64,000 bases of DNA from Mesorhizobium sp. AR10 (GTDB lineage: Bacteria; Pseudomonadota; Alphaproteobacteria; Rhizobiales; Rhizobiaceae). How positions within the stretch are numbered: position 1 is the first letter of the stretch; every line of letters starts with the position of its first letter. Below the pieces are notes generated by a model. It was not told the DNA's origin, ran no database searches, and was given only the letters and a program-made list of their open reading frames with translations. The DNA lies in assembly GCF_024746795.1 (NCBI RefSeq), contig NZ_CP080524.1, forward strand, positions 4,566,001 to 4,630,000. Reading direction: 5' to 3'. Both the position numbers and the translations under genes were made by a program. Below, piece by piece: positions 31,532 to 41,719 of this stretch.

Positions 31532-31605
31532 TGGGGAATAGGTTAACGGTAGACCCACGGACTCTGACTCCGTTAGTCCTGGTTCGAATCCAGGTTCCCC
31601 AGCCA
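31532..31605 (+). tRNA. tRNA-Gln (anticodon CUG)
   Basis: A complete cloverleaf: acceptor arms TGGGGAA and TTCCCCA, D arm GGTTAACGGTAGACC, anticodon stem ACGGA/TCCGT around loop CTCTGAC (anticodon CTG at 31564-31566), T arm CCTGG-TTCGAAT-CCAGG, discriminator G and encoded CCA. Glutamine tRNAs begin with U as seen here. The 3' side opens directly into accessory DNA. Confidence 0.96.
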
Positions 31606-33673: not shown

Positions 33674-34258
33674 CTATCGCTCTGCGCCTCCGAACCTAAC
33701 GACTGCGCCACCGAAGGCGGCTCGCTGGGCCTGCTCCATAAGAGTAACAATTTCGTCCCGACGCCTCCAATAAGCGTCCCATAGCTCGCTGCCAACAGCG
33801 GCGCGCAAGGCGTCTTCGGGCACCGCATCTTTGACGCCGGCAATTTCCTCGAAACGTTCTAGTTGGCGATACCGTTCATCAATGTCGACAGTGCCTCGCC
33901 TAGCCGGCGATCCTTTGGCAGTCTTGCTATTGATCCATGCTCTCCAATCCAAGCCGGATTTAGATTGATTGCAGGGACCACAAGCAGGCACCAAGTTTCC
34001 AGTCACATGGAAGAAGCCCGACGGCCGACCTCCCTTTACAATCGGGCGAAGATGGTCAGTGTCCGTCTTGCGTGCGCCGCAATAGATGCACTCATCCGGA
34101 TTGATGCCGGCGCGCTTGTAGAGGTTGGCCAAGTCTTCCAGCTTGACCTTTCTGGGGATGTGAAGCCAATCGTTCTCTCCCTCAAGATTACATCGCCTTA
34201 TGTCAGTTACGCACAATACCGGGCTTTTATTAGGGGCGTTACCCGCAGTTACCCGCAT
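33674..34258 (-). CDS. HNH endonuclease
   Basis: The beta-beta-alpha metal nuclease core is clear: CIYCGARKTDTDHLRPIVKG, then NLVPACGPCNQSKSG. The two CxxC pairs hold a structural zinc and the DH histidine is the catalytic base; the final N of CNQSKSG matches the HNH asparagine. The N-terminal half (NLEGENDWLHIPRKVKLEDL) is specific to a subgroup of free-standing HNH proteins, and the C-terminal ~80 residues are helical. Length is 194 aa. It is divergent, with a 90-base gap, from the tandem-domain protein at 34348, so they may be a functional pair. Restriction or mobile-element use cannot be told apart. Confidence 0.85.
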   Translation of the reverse strand: MRVTAGNAPNKSPVLCVTDIRRCNLEGENDWLHIPRKVKLEDLANLYKRAGINPDECIYCGARKTDTDHLRPIVKGGRPSGFFHVTGNLVPACGPCNQSKSGLDWRAWINSKTAKGSPARRGTVDIDERYRQLERFEEIAGVKDAVPEDALRAAVGSELWDAYWRRRDEIVTLMEQAQRAAFGGAVVRFGGAER

Positions 34259-35994: not shown

Positions 35995-38871
35995 TCACTC
36001 CGCCGCCTGCACCCTGCCCGCCTGGATGATCGCGCGGATTTCGGCGCGGCAGGAGCCGCAATTGGTGCCTGCCTTCAGCGCGCTGCCGATGGCCTCGACG
36101 CTCGTGCAGCCTGCCCCTACTGCTACCGCGATCTGGTTGGCGCCAATACTGAAGCAGGAACACACGACCGCGCCGGCATCGGGCCGTTCGGCACCGGCGC
36201 GGCCGGCGACGATGCGGAAGCGTTCGCGCTGGCCGGCGTGGGTCTCGTCAAGCTGTTCCGCTGCCCAGCCGCGCGACACGGCGACCGGGCCGGGTGCGAC
36301 GAACAAGGCTCCTGACAAATGATCGCCGTAGAAAGCGGCGATGCGATGCTGGCCGGCGTCGCGGTCGTGGTAGGCGAGGATGTCGGCGCCAGGCGGCGTG
36401 CCGAACAGCGAGCCGGCGAAACCGGCCCAGTCGATATCGTCATCGGCAAAGGCCAGTTCGACCCGCCAGCCGCCCCGGCATTTGGCAACGGCCCAGTAGC
36501 TTGCGGCAACCGCTGCCGGCCGCTGGCGCGTCACGGCAAAGCCGAAGGCTTTTGCCGCGAATTTCTCGATGCGGGCCGCGACATGTTTTAGCGCCGGCTG
36601 GCCGGAAACCGGGTCGGTGAGCGGTGCGGTCAGCGCGTCGAGCCGGCCCTTGGCGGCGAACTGATCGGTCCAGTGCATCGGTGCAAACAGGCTGCCCTGG
36701 CGCTGGCGCGGCGTGACCAGTGCGCGGACCAGCACGTCGCCGCGCAGGCTGGAGACGCGCACGATATCGGCGTCGCCGATGCCGAAGCGCTGCGCATCCA
36801 CCGGGTGGATTTCGACGAATGGCTCGGCCATGTGCTGGGACAGGCGCGGGCTTTTGCCGGTCCGTGTCATGGTGTGCCAATGGTCGCGGACGCGGCCGGT
36901 GTTGAGGATCAGCGGATAGGCCGGGCTGGTGCGGATTTCCGTGGTGGGACGGATGGCGATGAAGCGCGCCTTGCGGTCGGGCGTGTAGAAGTTGCCGTTG
37001 GCGAAGAAGCGGGTGCTTTCACCCTCCGGTTTGCGTCCAGCCTGAACACCCGCCTCTTGCGAACGTTCAGCTTGAACACCCCCCTCTGGCCTGCCGGCCA
37101 TCTCCCCCTCAAGGGGGGAGATCGGCAGCTCTTTCGGCGGCGCCTTTTCGGCAACGTCGGTGATTGGCGAAAACGACGGTGACATCCAATCTCCCCCCTT
37201 GAGGGGGAGATGGCCGGCAGGCCAGAGGGGGGTGTCTTGGCTCGGCGCCGGCCATTGGAATGGAGCAATATCTTCATACCCCTCCCGGTCGACACCGGCG
37301 TAGGCGCCGATGTCAAAATCCCGCGCGCCGTCATTCTCGAACCCCGACAAAGCGGCGTGTTCGGCGAAAACCTCCGCCGGCGAGGCATGCGCAAACGCCT
37401 CGGCAAACCCCATGCGCTTGCCGACTTCGGCAATGATCTGCCAGTCGGGTCGCGCCTCACCGGGCATGGCCAGAAAGCTGCGCTGGCGTGAGATGCGGCG
37501 TTCCGAATTGGTGACGGTGCCGTCCTTCTCGCCCCATGCGGCGGCGGGCAGCCGGACATGGGCGTGGCGGACCGTGTCGGTCTCGGCCAGAACGTCCGAC
37601 ACCACGACGAAGGGGCAAGCCTTGATCGCGGCTTCGACGGCGTCGGCATCCGGCATCGAATCGACCGGGTTGGTGGCCATGATCCACAGCGCCTTGACGC
37701 GCCCGTCGGCCACGCCTTGAAACATCTCGACCGCCTTCAGGCCGGCTTTTTCGGCGACCGTCGGCGCGTTCCAGAAGCGCTGCACGCGCTCGCGATGATC
37801 GGGGTTTTCAATCTCCATATGGGCGGCCAGCATGTTGGCCATGCCGCCGACCTCACGGCCGCCCATGGCGTTGGGCTGGCCGGTCACCGAAAACGGCCCT
37901 GCCCCCGGCCTGCCGATGCGGCCGGTGGCGAGATGGCAGTTGATGATGGCGTTGACCTTGTCGGTGCCCGACGACGACTGGTTCACCCCCTGGCTATAGA
38001 CGGTCACGGTCTTCGCGGTCGCGGCAAACAGGCTGTAGAAGCGCCCAAGCTCGTCCTCGCTGAGGCCCGTGGCGGCGGCGACGCCGGCAAGGTCGAGCGC
38101 AGAGGCGGCAAAAAGCGCTTGCCCGAAGCCGCTCGTGTGCGCGGTGATGTAGGCGCGGTCCAGCGCGTTGTGCTGGCCGAGATAGGTGAGCAGCCCAGTG
38201 AACAACGCGACGTCGCCATCCGGCGCGATCGCCAGATGCATGTCGGCGATGTCAGCCGTCATGGTGCGGCGCGGATCGACCAGCACGATCTTCATTTCGG
38301 GCCGCTTTTCCCGGGCCGCGGCAATGCGCTGGTAGAGCACGGGGTGGCACCAGGCGAGATTGGAGCCGACCAACACGATCAGGTCGGCAAGCTCAAGATC
38401 CTCGTAGGTGCCCGGCACGGTATCGGAGCCAAAGGCGCGTCGATGGCCGGCCACGGAGGAGGCCATGCACAGGCGCGAATTGGTATCGATGTTGGCCGAG
38501 CCGATAAAACCTTTCATCAGCTTGTTGGCGACGTAGTAGTCCTCGGTCAGCAACTGGCCGGAGACGTAGAAGGCGACTGAATCCGGGCCGTGCTCGGCGA
38601 TGGTTTGCGAGAAGGTCGAGGCGACGAGGTCTAGCGCCTCGTCCCAGCCGGCGCGGCGGCCGTGAATTTCCGGGTGAAGAAGCCGGCCGTCGAGGTCGAT
38701 GGTTTCGGCAAGCGCCGAACCCTTGGAGCAGAGCCGGCCGAAATTCGCGGGATGGTCGGGGTCGCCGCGGACGCTGACTTCGCCGTCCGCGGCGACCTTC
38801 GCCAGCACGCCGCAGCCTACCCCGCAATAGGGGCAGGTGGTCCTCACCTCGCGCGCTTCCTCAATCTCCAT
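35995..38871 (-). CDS. nasA: Assimilatory nitrate reductase, catalytic subunit
   Basis: Reduces nitrate to nitrite in the cytoplasm using a molybdopterin-guanine-dinucleotide cofactor. The N-terminal [4Fe-4S] site is TCPYCGVGCGV with a later LCSKGSAL. The molybdopterin oxidoreductase domain follows (YVSGQLLTEDYYVANKLMKG, SQGVNQSSSGTDKVNAI, LPAAAWGEKDGTVTNSERR), then the dinucleotide-binding domain (LILNTGRVRDHWHTMTRTGK). The C-terminal BFD-like [2Fe-2S] domain is VVCSCFSIGANQIAVAVGAG and ALKAGTNCGSCRAEIRAII. Between the two cofactor domains, residues ~546-617 are encoded by an inverted repeat pair and neighbouring short direct repeats, an in-frame insertion that makes the protein 958 aa instead of roughly 885. 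It ends the nirBD-nasA gene order. Confidence 0.96.
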   Translation of the reverse strand: MEIEEAREVRTTCPYCGVGCGVLAKVAADGEVSVRGDPDHPANFGRLCSKGSALAETIDLDGRLLHPEIHGRRAGWDEALDLVASTFSQTIAEHGPDSVAFYVSGQLLTEDYYVANKLMKGFIGSANIDTNSRLCMASSVAGHRRAFGSDTVPGTYEDLELADLIVLVGSNLAWCHPVLYQRIAAAREKRPEMKIVLVDPRRTMTADIADMHLAIAPDGDVALFTGLLTYLGQHNALDRAYITAHTSGFGQALFAASALDLAGVAAATGLSEDELGRFYSLFAATAKTVTVYSQGVNQSSSGTDKVNAIINCHLATGRIGRPGAGPFSVTGQPNAMGGREVGGMANMLAAHMEIENPDHRERVQRFWNAPTVAEKAGLKAVEMFQGVADGRVKALWIMATNPVDSMPDADAVEAAIKACPFVVVSDVLAETDTVRHAHVRLPAAAWGEKDGTVTNSERRISRQRSFLAMPGEARPDWQIIAEVGKRMGFAEAFAHASPAEVFAEHAALSGFENDGARDFDIGAYAGVDREGYEDIAPFQWPAPSQDTPLWPAGHLPLKGGDWMSPSFSPITDVAEKAPPKELPISPLEGEMAGRPEGGVQAERSQEAGVQAGRKPEGESTRFFANGNFYTPDRKARFIAIRPTTEIRTSPAYPLILNTGRVRDHWHTMTRTGKSPRLSQHMAEPFVEIHPVDAQRFGIGDADIVRVSSLRGDVLVRALVTPRQRQGSLFAPMHWTDQFAAKGRLDALTAPLTDPVSGQPALKHVAARIEKFAAKAFGFAVTRQRPAAVAASYWAVAKCRGGWRVELAFADDDIDWAGFAGSLFGTPPGADILAYHDRDAGQHRIAAFYGDHLSGALFVAPGPVAVSRGWAAEQLDETHAGQRERFRIVAGRAGAERPDAGAVVCSCFSIGANQIAVAVGAGCTSVEAIGSALKAGTNCGSCRAEIRAIIQAGRVQAAE
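37076..37235. repeat. Perfect 47-base inverted repeat pair inside nasA
   Basis: The segments 37076-37122 and 37189-37235 are exact reverse complements of each other, 66 bases apart, with cores CTCCCCCTCAAGGGGGGAG and GGCCTGCCGGCC. Both lie in the nasA frame, which stays open through them and reads LWPAGHLPLKGG and SPLEGEMAGRPEGG. A degenerate direct repeat of CAGC[CT]TGAACACCC lies beside it (37040 and 37070). The same family of repeat is frequent between genes in Mesorhizobium, to my knowledge. Confidence 0.95.
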
Positions 38872-39268: not shown

Positions 39269-41719
39269 TCACTCCGCAGCCTGCGCGAAGTCCACCGATG
39301 CCATCGGCTGGAATTCGTGCTTGTCCTTGCCGGAAACGCGTTCCGACCACGGGTCGACCTGAGCGAATTTCTGGCTGAAGACGAAGCGGTCGAAGAACGC
39401 CTTGCGCTTGCCGGCATCGTCCATGATCTGGCGCTTGATCTCCGGGATGCCGATGCGCTTGGCCCATTTGTAGATGCGCTCGAGATAGCGGCCCTGCTCG
39501 CGGTACATCTGCGTCAGCGCCACGATATGCTCCAGCGCCTCGTCCTCGGTCTTGACCAGGCCGAGCACCTCAGTGCCCTTGATGTCGAGGCCGGCGGCCC
39601 CGGCGAAGTGGATCTCGTAGCCACTGTCGACGCAGATGACGCCGACATCCTTGCAGGTCGCCTCGGCGCAGTTCCTCGGGCAACCCGACACCGCCATCTT
39701 GACCTTGGCCGGGGTCCACGAGCCCCACATGAACTTCTCGATGCGGACGCCCAGACCCGTCGAATCCTGCGTGCCGAAGCGGCACCAGTCCGAACCGACG
39801 CAGGTCTTCACGGTGCGCAAGCCCTTGGCATAAGCATGGCCGGAGACGAAGCCGGCCTGGCCGAGATCGGCCCACACCGCCGGCAGGTCTTCCTTGCGGA
39901 TGCCGAGCATGTCGATGCGCTGGCCGCCGGTGACCTTGACCATCGGGATCTCGAACTTGTCGACGACATCGGCGATGGCGCGCAGCTCGGCGGCATTGGT
40001 GACGCCACCCCACATGCGCGGCACCACCGAATAGGTGCCGTCCTTCTGGATGTTGGCGTGGACGCGCTCGTTGATGAAGCGCGACTGGTAGTCGTCGGCA
40101 TAGTCGTTCGGCCAGTCGCAGACGAGATAGTAGTTGAGCGCCGGCCGGCATTTGGCGCAGCCGCAGGAGGTCGTCCATTCCAGTTCCTGCATGACGGCTG
40201 GAATGGTCTTCAGGCTCTTGGCCATGATCAGCCGGCGGACCTCGTCATGGCCGAGCGTGGTGCAGCCGCACATCGGCTGGACCGCGGCCGGGTTGTATTT
40301 GTCGCCGATGGTCAGCACCATCAGCTTCTCGACCAGCCCGGTGCAGGAGCCGCAGGAGGCCGACGCCTTGGTGTGGGCACGCACGTCGTCAAGCGAGGTC
40401 AGGCCTTTCCCTGAAATCGCGCCGGTGATCTTTCCCTTGCAAACGCCGTTACAGCCGCAGATTTCCGCATCATCCGGCAAGGCTGCAACGGCCGCCATAG
40501 GGTCCAGGGGGGCGCCTCCCTGGTAGGACTGGCCGAAGATGAGCGTGTCGCGCATTTCGGAAATGTCGGTCTGCTTCTTCTTGAGGTCGTTGAACCAGGC
40601 GCCATCGGCCGTCTCGCCATAGAGCACGGTGCCGATGATGCGGTCGTTCTTGAGCACCAGGCGCTTGTAGACGCCGGCCGCCGCATCGCGCAGCACGATC
40701 TCCTGGCGGTCCTCGCCTTCGGCGAAGTCGCCGAGCGAGAACAGGTCGATGCCGGTGACCTTGAGCTTGGTCGGCGTATCCATGTGGACAAAGGCTGCCG
40801 CGTCGTTGCCGGCAAGTTGGCTGGCGGCAACGCGTGCCATCTCGTAGAGGGGTGCGACGAGACCGTAGACCTGGCCGCTGACCTCGGCGCATTCGCCGAC
40901 CGCGTAGATGTCGGGGTCGTTGCTGCGCATGCCAGCGTCGACGACGATGCCTCTGTTAACGGCGATGCCGGCCTGCTTGGCCAGCGCCGAATTCGGCCTG
41001 ATGCCCACCGCCATGACGACGAGCGTCGCCGGGATGATGGTTCCGTCGGCGAGTTCCACCTGCCCGACCTTGCCGTTGCCCGTGATCGCCTGGGTGTTGG
41101 CCTTGGTGATGACCTTGATGCCGCGCTGTTCGACGGCGCGCTGCAGGAGATAGCCGGCGGCCGGATCGAGCTGGCGCTCCATCAGCGTCGGCATGACATG
41201 CAGCACGGTGACGTCCATGCCTTGCGCGTTCAGGCCCGCAGCCGCTTCCAACCCGAGCAGGCCGCCGCCGATGACCACGGCCTTGGCCCGCGACTGGGCG
41301 GCGAGCATCATGGCCTGGACGTCGTCGAGGTCGCGATAGGTGAGCACACCCGGCAGATCATGGCCGGGCACCGGAATGATGAACGGCACCGAGCCCGTGG
41401 CGATGACCAGCTTGTCGTAGGGTTCGGTGACGCCATGATCGGAGGTGACGGTCTTTGCCTCCCGGTCGATGGCGACGATCTTGTGGCCCTTGTAGAGGGT
41501 GATGCCGTTGGCGATGTACCAGCCGTCGCCGTGGATGATGATTTCCTCAAAGGCCTTTTCGCCCGACAGCACCGGCGACAGCATGATGCGGTCGTAGTTG
41601 ACCCGCGGCTCGGCGTTGAAGATGGTGACGGTGTAGCGGCCCGGCGCCTGCTCCAGCAGGTGCTCCAGCATCCGCCCGGGAGCCATGCCGTTGCCGATGA
41701 TGACGAGTTTTTCGCTCAT
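39269..41719 (-). CDS. nirB: Assimilatory nitrite reductase [NAD(P)H], large subunit
   Basis: Reduces nitrite to ammonium. The N-terminal FAD part begins KLVIIGNGMAPGRMLEHLLE; the NAD-binding loop is AVVIGGGLLGLEAAAGL. Two BFD-like cysteine regions follow (ICGCNGVCKGKITGAI, ASCGSCTGLVEKLM) and the siroheme / [4Fe-4S] half-domains: TCVGSDWCRFGTQDSTGLG and VSGCPRNCAEATCKDVG. Length (816 aa) is normal. Start ATG at 41719 lies four bases after the stop of the ABC ATPase gene, so it follows nrtABD directly. Core of the assimilation route with nirD and nasA. Confidence 0.97.
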   Translation of the reverse strand: MSEKLVIIGNGMAPGRMLEHLLEQAPGRYTVTIFNAEPRVNYDRIMLSPVLSGEKAFEEIIIHGDGWYIANGITLYKGHKIVAIDREAKTVTSDHGVTEPYDKLVIATGSVPFIIPVPGHDLPGVLTYRDLDDVQAMMLAAQSRAKAVVIGGGLLGLEAAAGLNAQGMDVTVLHVMPTLMERQLDPAAGYLLQRAVEQRGIKVITKANTQAITGNGKVGQVELADGTIIPATLVVMAVGIRPNSALAKQAGIAVNRGIVVDAGMRSNDPDIYAVGECAEVSGQVYGLVAPLYEMARVAASQLAGNDAAAFVHMDTPTKLKVTGIDLFSLGDFAEGEDRQEIVLRDAAAGVYKRLVLKNDRIIGTVLYGETADGAWFNDLKKKQTDISEMRDTLIFGQSYQGGAPLDPMAAVAALPDDAEICGCNGVCKGKITGAISGKGLTSLDDVRAHTKASASCGSCTGLVEKLMVLTIGDKYNPAAVQPMCGCTTLGHDEVRRLIMAKSLKTIPAVMQELEWTTSCGCAKCRPALNYYLVCDWPNDYADDYQSRFINERVHANIQKDGTYSVVPRMWGGVTNAAELRAIADVVDKFEIPMVKVTGGQRIDMLGIRKEDLPAVWADLGQAGFVSGHAYAKGLRTVKTCVGSDWCRFGTQDSTGLGVRIEKFMWGSWTPAKVKMAVSGCPRNCAEATCKDVGVICVDSGYEIHFAGAAGLDIKGTEVLGLVKTEDEALEHIVALTQMYREQGRYLERIYKWAKRIGIPEIKRQIMDDAGKRKAFFDRFVFSQKFAQVDPWSERVSGKDKHEFQPMASVDFAQAAE

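Follow-up and report, generated by a model that had tools for sequence, protein, structure and literature searches.

Palindromes that code for protein are familiar mainly from Rickettsia and Wolbachia, apart from scattered cases in other organisms, and here we describe a rhizobial family of such repeats that is found in several enzymes. Our starting point is a window of 64,000 nucleotides (nt) from Mesorhizobium sp. AR10 (contig NZ_CP080524.1, positions 4,566,001 to 4,630,000; coordinates below are those of the window), in which a palindromic element lies in frame within nasA, the gene for the catalytic subunit of assimilatory nitrate reductase. The Rickettsia palindromic elements (RPE) were reportedly described by Ogata in 2000 and 2002, and coding palindromes of Wolbachia reportedly by Ogata in 2005. 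The rhizobial element resembles RPE, which are palindromic repeats of 100-200 bp located both between genes and in frame in conserved enzymes, where the protein tolerates them. RPE measure 105-146 bp according to PMC2229807, and the rhizobial element, at ~158 bp, is slightly longer. The likeness drawn here is one of description, and the hosts differ, the present one being Mesorhizobium-like by its nasA relatives and belonging to the rhizobia, with genomes of 4-9 Mb. In addition, the rhizobial linker sites could be followed through 91 nasA rows and several genera, with protein neutrality and arm covariation measured. By analogy, the element would work like an RPE, and we do not class it as one. 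Among the hosts of the further repeats compared below, Corynebacterium diphtheriae belongs to a different phylum from the rhizobia.

Among other small dispersed repeats, the enterobacterial ERIC/RU and the Neisseria Correia repeats can also occur in frame with coding sequence (Delihas, PMC2229807); their hosts belong to other bacterial groups, and we liken them to the rhizobial element by description only. Similarly, Cod-2 of Corynebacterium diphtheriae is a small structured repeat within various coding sequences; it has been compared with the Rickettsia repeats, is very small and is read in different frames (PMC2267715). Related bacteria harbor the palindromic repeats Bru-RS of Brucella (103-118 bp, classed as intergenic; PMC2267715, PMC10800456) and RIME of Rhizobium, again compared by description only. 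Outside bacteria, the coding palindromes of Nematomorpha mitochondria are likewise in-gene inverted repeats with arms changing in concert, for which template switching has been proposed; their arms encode conserved protein regions, whereas the rhizobial arms are part of a dispersed repeat that lies in a linker and can be lost by relatives (PMC6649704 for the mitochondrial case). In-frame repeats in other bacteria have already been described (PMC2229807, PMC10969869, PMC2267715; further background in PMC5082802 and PMC554113), while the literature covered, outside which most subscription papers fall, yielded no account of this family within rhizobial coding genes, and a literature search by element sequence string gave no match and no known name. 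The kind of system is already known, and the element is a well-supported new rhizobial case of it.

We consider it probable (roughly 80%) that the repeat is tolerated in the NasA linker, that its arms are kept by hairpin pairing, and that it undergoes repeated loss and turnover. A mobile-type palindromic repeat of ~158 bp sits in frame in the linker between the molybdopterin and dinucleotide-binding domains. This linker would accept very different sequences, so that the 60-70 or so residues added by the repeat could persist as a passenger that is neutral for the protein. Selection would purge frame-breaking changes in the element, and base pairing within the arms (through small inner hairpins) and between them would hold the arm nucleotides and hence the encoded residues, with hairpin-templated correction or conversion as the most likely agent. 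The site would turn over by deletion of the element, after which several linkers retain a short palindrome made of arm ends, as well as by nesting of other repeats, exchange between species and perhaps re-insertion.

Architecture of the element

The insertion-bearing nasA (35995..38871, reverse strand) is an open reading frame of 958 amino acids with the Pfam domains Fe4S4, Molybdopterin, Molydop_binding and BFD. The core of the element (37077..37235, reverse strand; 159 nt) was placed by alignment with 30 further copies of the same genome and by BLAST matches in that genome. In reading order on the reverse strand, the first arm (37186..37235) encodes TPLWPAGHLPLKGGD and the second arm (37076..37125) encodes ISPLEGEMAGRPEGG, and the spacer between them (37126..37185) is the fast-changing part, as judged from spacer and arm differences in 11 pairs. 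A repeat search gives arms of 50 nt with 98% complementarity, the exact stretch being the outer 47 nt (37076-37122 and 37189-37235, 66 nt apart), and the nasA reading frame is open across both; the exact in-frame arms reported by an initial annotation of the window are thereby confirmed. One arm contains the small inner palindrome TGGCCTGCCGGCCA (37087..37100), which holds a pair that covaries (other copies have T-A, G-C or C-G, according to the table of within-arm pairs), and the other arm contains the same palindrome at 37211..37224. A tail (37022..37075, reverse strand) encodes VQAERSQEAGVQAGRKPEG and, by its direct repeat, its sequence and the tails of relatives, apparently consists of decayed ~30-bp repeats of the right end of the element. 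The short direct repeats already annotated (37034-37060 and 37064-37090, 85%) look like this ~30-bp right-end repeat, and VQAG/PEGG-like tails also occur in the nasA linkers of relatives.

Pfam coordinates place the insert between Molybdopterin (72-486) and Molydop_binding (654-765), in agreement with the position first proposed between the molybdopterin and dinucleotide-binding domains. In a sequence alignment of NasA with the structures 2jio and 2jim, which we take to be NapA, the periplasmic nitrate reductase, of Desulfovibrio, the aligned blocks stop at query 548 (chain 560) and restart at query 619 (chain 579), which places the insert inside that gap; judging from this alignment, it may lie at the NasA surface. 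An earlier estimate of about 70 added codons was roughly right, with 97 codons between fixed anchors versus 25-37 in the 32 rows, introduced below, that were classed as element-free. The long mRNA stem also suggested initially is borne out by prediction, with a folding energy of -142.9 kcal/mol where shuffled sequences average -77.6 (z -13.6; 0/200 shuffles as good); this fold and the arm-pattern count given below show that the arms are not a chance occurrence. An Rfam search of 36500-37800 returned no known RNA family at gathering score.

Carriers, losses and turnover among relatives

A genus-wide search covered 146 genomes, all with some match, and 90 loci from 89 of them were examined (genome G083 gave two). 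Among the 57 genomes outside this sample, the best listed match was of ~70% identity in 38, mostly at 890 amino acids, and 19 had distant matches only; the ~70%-identity form was represented by seven examples from other genomes. Together with nine named loci the set came to 99, of which 97 had both anchors, and removal of five duplicate records left 92 distinct linkers.

The resulting nasA tree has 91 rows, comprising 38 with the full element, four with the full element plus a second palindromic family upstream, four with the second family, 13 with remnants and 32 classed as 'without'. L127 was counted as a remnant, its arm motif being broken, and L017 fell among the rows 'without' by length. 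Aligning the relatives places the start of the element at nearly the same nucleotide in carriers (from anchor +31 to +35 across the 38 full-element rows that lack an upstream second family), and this same-site occurrence rules out a unique recent insertion. The five linker states require at least 33 changes on the tree, and near sisters differ in state (for example, L092 and L162, or L108 and L141). Collapsed palindromes remain in L017, L129, L137, L138 and L160, and a different repeat is nested in the second arm in L108 and L128. Once L149, a second-family row, is read as also carrying the full element (it was moved by hand to the combined class), the full element occurs at this site in 43/91 rows, and it is found at six loci of three further genera. 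The initial view of a single event, for which an ancestral repeat in relatives would have counted as refutation, does not fit this distribution. The element is still a tolerated insertion, because near sisters lack it or bear scars only.

The second palindromic family (SPLRGGS...ALSEAKQA.RGG and similar) is in frame in L131, L140, L149, L167, L170, L125, L126 and L153, and in these nasA linkers it stands just upstream of the first element or replaces it. Furthermore, the divergent second nasA of G083 (L171) bears, at the same linker site, what may be a decayed element. The nitrate reductase of M. japonicum MAFF 303099 (P0063) has a nested form of the element.

Reading frame and encoded residues

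Ninety of the 92 distinct nasA linkers keep the frame and contain no stop. The other two are L127 (genome G029), with breaks apparently in G/C runs, and L130, with a run of N. All measurable nasA elements fall in one length class modulo 3 (39/39), compared with 18/24 genomic copies (Fisher p 0.002), and copies of non-modal length keep this class in 5/5 nasA versus 1/7 genomic cases (p 0.015); these tests leave out the cobN and ABC copies as well as 4/43 nasA and 4/28 genomic elements that were unmeasurable, and shared ancestry makes p only a guide.

The ratio of nonsynonymous to synonymous differences per site (pN/pS) in 12 near-relative pairs, picked by hand and not all strict sisters, comes to 0.15 in the nasA core and to 0.97 within the element. 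When the genomic copies are read in this frame, the ratio is 1.06 for 30 copies and 1.07 for the 28 that are left once those of cobN and ABC are set aside. The nasA core is under purifying selection, and the element is protein-neutral, its residues being without protein-level constraint. Because the frame is kept while pN/pS is neutral, we infer that the insert is translated as an unconstrained linker. The idea that such repeats make protein linkers therefore holds weakly, in that the element is carried as a linker whose encoded residues lack protein-level constraint.

A function of the added segment in the protein, for example as a useful spacer or interaction segment, would agree with its presence, nearly always in frame, in many species, and with the use of one second-arm frame at five sites (though in genomic copies an alternative frame is open with similar frequency). 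We nevertheless find such a function very unlikely, given the pN/pS of the element, its repeated losses, the nested insertions of other repeats and the large length variation. It is still less probable that the hairpin is skipped or cut out, by translational bypassing or RNA processing, to yield an enzyme without it: bypassed untranslated palindromic elements have been reported in yeast mitochondrial genes (PMC6649704), but the frame and the stop-free state are kept inside the element, which would be needless if it were skipped, and 6/30 genomic copies have a stop in the same frame.

The frame breaks of G029 could be taken to mean that the gene is a pseudogene or the element an assembly artefact. 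In this genome the element is broken in three genes, namely nasA (L127) and cobG/cobN (L360, L388), and the latter two are the only exceptions in cobG/cobN. However, the breaks are likely reading errors, since by reading they apparently lie in G/C runs, as homopolymer errors do, and the element occurs in dozens of separately listed genomes. The core pN/pS rules out a pseudogene, and we regard this explanation as scarcely credible. Similarly, the initial annotation had allowed for an inactive gene, and a core pN/pS of 0.13 against the sister G083 makes the gene look otherwise; its suggestion of an in-frame rhizobial palindromic repeat in an apparently functional core metabolic enzyme, resembling the Rickettsia case, is upheld.

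Base pairing and covariation of the arms

Across 11 pairs, differing sites amount to 47/990 in the arms (0.047), 245/759 in the spacers (0.323) and 1665/9439 at third positions of the nasA core (0.176), and genomic copies show similarly slow arms. Relative to nasA third positions in these pairs, differences in the arms are thus 3.7-fold fewer, while the protein is unconstrained and the fold very stable. This could mean that the hairpin is kept for some RNA- or DNA-level role (mRNA stability, RNase III processing or pausing), with the protein merely tolerant. Near relatives without the element, however, have an otherwise intact gene, the same element occurs in other genes and in stretches without a recognised gene, and the genomic copies have similarly slow arms, so nothing about them is nasA-specific; we therefore consider such a role rather unlikely.

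Retention of the arms by hairpin pairing, which we prefer, is where the covariation of the arms bears. Position 32 is equal between arms in 43/46 nasA and 56/60 genomic copies (all genera sampled), with three matched states, and the same coupling is seen in cobG (24/27) and cobN (20/23). On the nasA tree, 9/10 independent pairs typically agree at this between-arm position and 0 oppose (median p 0.004), while at the second-arm inner pair 7/7 independent pairs agree (p 0.016). In rows with both motifs recognised, the coupled residues are LE in 32, RA in nine and others in four for nasA (41/45 covary); TV in 11, SE in eight, AA in three and others in four for cobG; and SE in nine, AA in five, TV in five and SA in three for cobN. 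In the NasA of the window, the coupled residues are spaced 31 positions apart.

In some rows, the arms appear to extend into the host gene. For example, the bases following the element in L113, L106, L099 and L138 repeat, in inverted form, the host bases ahead of it, and in L104 and L109 copying into host bases apparently ran in the opposite direction. Outward arm growth into host codons scores at least 10 in 7/43 rows versus 5.1% of 2000 random pairings, and such copying may reflect template switching. We would lay even odds on the broader proposition that, in several rhizobial core enzymes, ~50 residues are written by a DNA hairpin and not by protein selection, with residues ~31 apart changing together; arm copying that spreads into the host's own codons forms part of the same proposition.

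A dispersed family in several host genes

The element belongs to a palindromic family of ~158 bp that is dispersed in the genome. An arm pattern has 104 matches with at most two mismatches, compared with 0 for a reversed control pattern, and a BLAST search of the 6.9-Mb genome with the element gives at least 87 matches in both orientations (40 of 117 candidates scored). The alignment of 31 genomic copies, including that of nasA, has a consensus of two inverted arms around a variable spacer, each arm containing two small palindromes, and the inner palindrome pair, left free in the pattern, is G-C, T-A or C-G in all 84 zero-mismatch arms listed.

Scanning the genome for further coding copies, as envisaged initially, revealed in-frame members of the family in three genes: cobG, cobN, where the Pfam CobN domain is matched in three stretches, and an oligopeptide-type ABC ATPase, where ABC_tran is matched in two. 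We assigned the names cobG and cobN from Pfam domains. These were the three genes with the element inside among 20 long open frames across or beside other copies that were scanned with Pfam; the remainder comprised one Memo/PGA_cap-type protein with the element perhaps before its start, one DoxX frame with the element ahead of the domain and 15 frames without a Pfam match. Copies of the element also lie in stretches without a recognised gene.

In relatives, 28/29 cobG linkers, 28/29 linkers of cobN site 2 and 28/28 measurable linkers of cobN site 1 are in frame without stops, within a sample of the 29 best-matching relatives out of 39 and 40 with a match, which is biased to carriers. Many cobG matches have one or two stops inside the alignment, for which the query was a stop-to-stop frame that may begin before the start codon. 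Element length is 1 modulo 3 in 26/27 cobG and 24/24 cobN measurable copies versus 6/27 genomic copies (a set that includes the cobN and ABC copies), and this length class is the one that keeps the frame in these genes. At all five sites (nasA, cobG, cobN sites 1 and 2, and the ABC ATPase), a small number of sites, the frame used for the second arm gives SPLxGEMxGRxEGG, and in genomic copies this frame and another are open about equally (18/27 and 21/27).

Across species, cobN site 1 (L364-L392) holds different repeat families or is nearly empty, and thus looks like a permissive entry point. Additionally, nearly the same foreign segment, GGEEWSAQRTE.QLLGFPNDER.ERQRRA, lies in frame in the second arm of L385 (cobN) and of L108 and L128 (nasA).

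Other genera and modes of inheritance

A search of 394 genomes of the family, drawn evenly, with a composite linker peptide returned 20 loci. Six of these (L274; L275-278; L282) are nasA from three further genera, and in each the element lies within one codon of the site described above. The nasA of Xaviernesmea oryzae (L014) also carries the element, and proteins of Chelativorans xinjiangense, Brucella sp. IR073 and one more source have it at the same place. Either the insertion predates these genera or the site was entered repeatedly. Element length tends to follow the host, with 173-174 in 8/11 copies of the Xaviernesmea genome and 176 in its nasA, and with 159 in 6/7 genomic copies of genus g51 and 160 in 3/4 of its nasA copies. 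For this cross-genus comparison, 40 copies of other genera were fetched, seven were dropped for a missing motif and three as the nasA copies themselves, and the nasA elements of L108 and L128 were excluded.

Several observations weigh against the reading favored here, or at least against its simplest form. The element of the window resembles that of its gene-tree sister L090, absent from the 40 best matches listed, less than it does the elements of L115 and L116 (93 and 92%), and the spacers diverge more than core third positions (0.323 vs 0.176); strict vertical descent of one insertion is therefore insufficient. By reading, similar spacers or tails occur in non-sister species (L119, L121, L149 and L169), and such resemblances imply that exchange between species, or replacement, would have to be common. 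Exchanged alleles in turn inflate the number of independent tree pairs and thus weaken the covariation test. Mean identities do not sort the nasA copies cleanly by host genus. The coupling is also not absolute, the first-arm inner pair in nasA being G-C in 44/46 copies and an unpaired T-C in 2/46. Furthermore, neutral arm-to-arm conversion alone leaves the slow arms unexplained, which need hairpin selection or re-seeding from genomic copies.

As to the putative mobility of the repeat, no target-site duplication was recognised by eye in the flanks of the element, whose ends are not sharp. The layout is REPIN-like, with two small palindromes per arm and inverted arms, but unlike in REPIN/RAYT systems the RAYT (Y1) transposase domain PF01797 has 0 matches in this genome, the control being positive in 5/14 genomes. 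With its terminal inverted repeats, the element also resembles a miniature inverted-repeat transposable element, and at ~158 bp it is too short for a transposase of its own.

Genomic context

The neighbour of nasA, on the same strand (39269..41719), encodes a nitrite-reductase-type large subunit with the Pfam domains Pyr_redox_2, BFD, NIR_SIR_ferr and NIR_SIR, presumably NirB, which gives a nitrate assimilation context. The window also holds a tRNA-Gln (31532-31605) and, 2 kb further on, an open reading frame (33674-34258) that we take to resemble an HNH-type nuclease; the two may possibly mark an island border.

Implications

The strongest points of this case are that protein neutrality was measured beside frame keeping and that residue covariation follows DNA pairing, in relatives numerous enough for losses and changes of the element to be followed. 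The family thereby offers a natural test of how an in-gene DNA hairpin evolves under an indifferent protein, and of templated arm correction in bacterial chromosomes. If our reading is true, strong residue covariation would arise without any need for protein contact, and covariation in such linkers would not be evidence of contact; linkers of this kind would also be entry points for mobile DNA.

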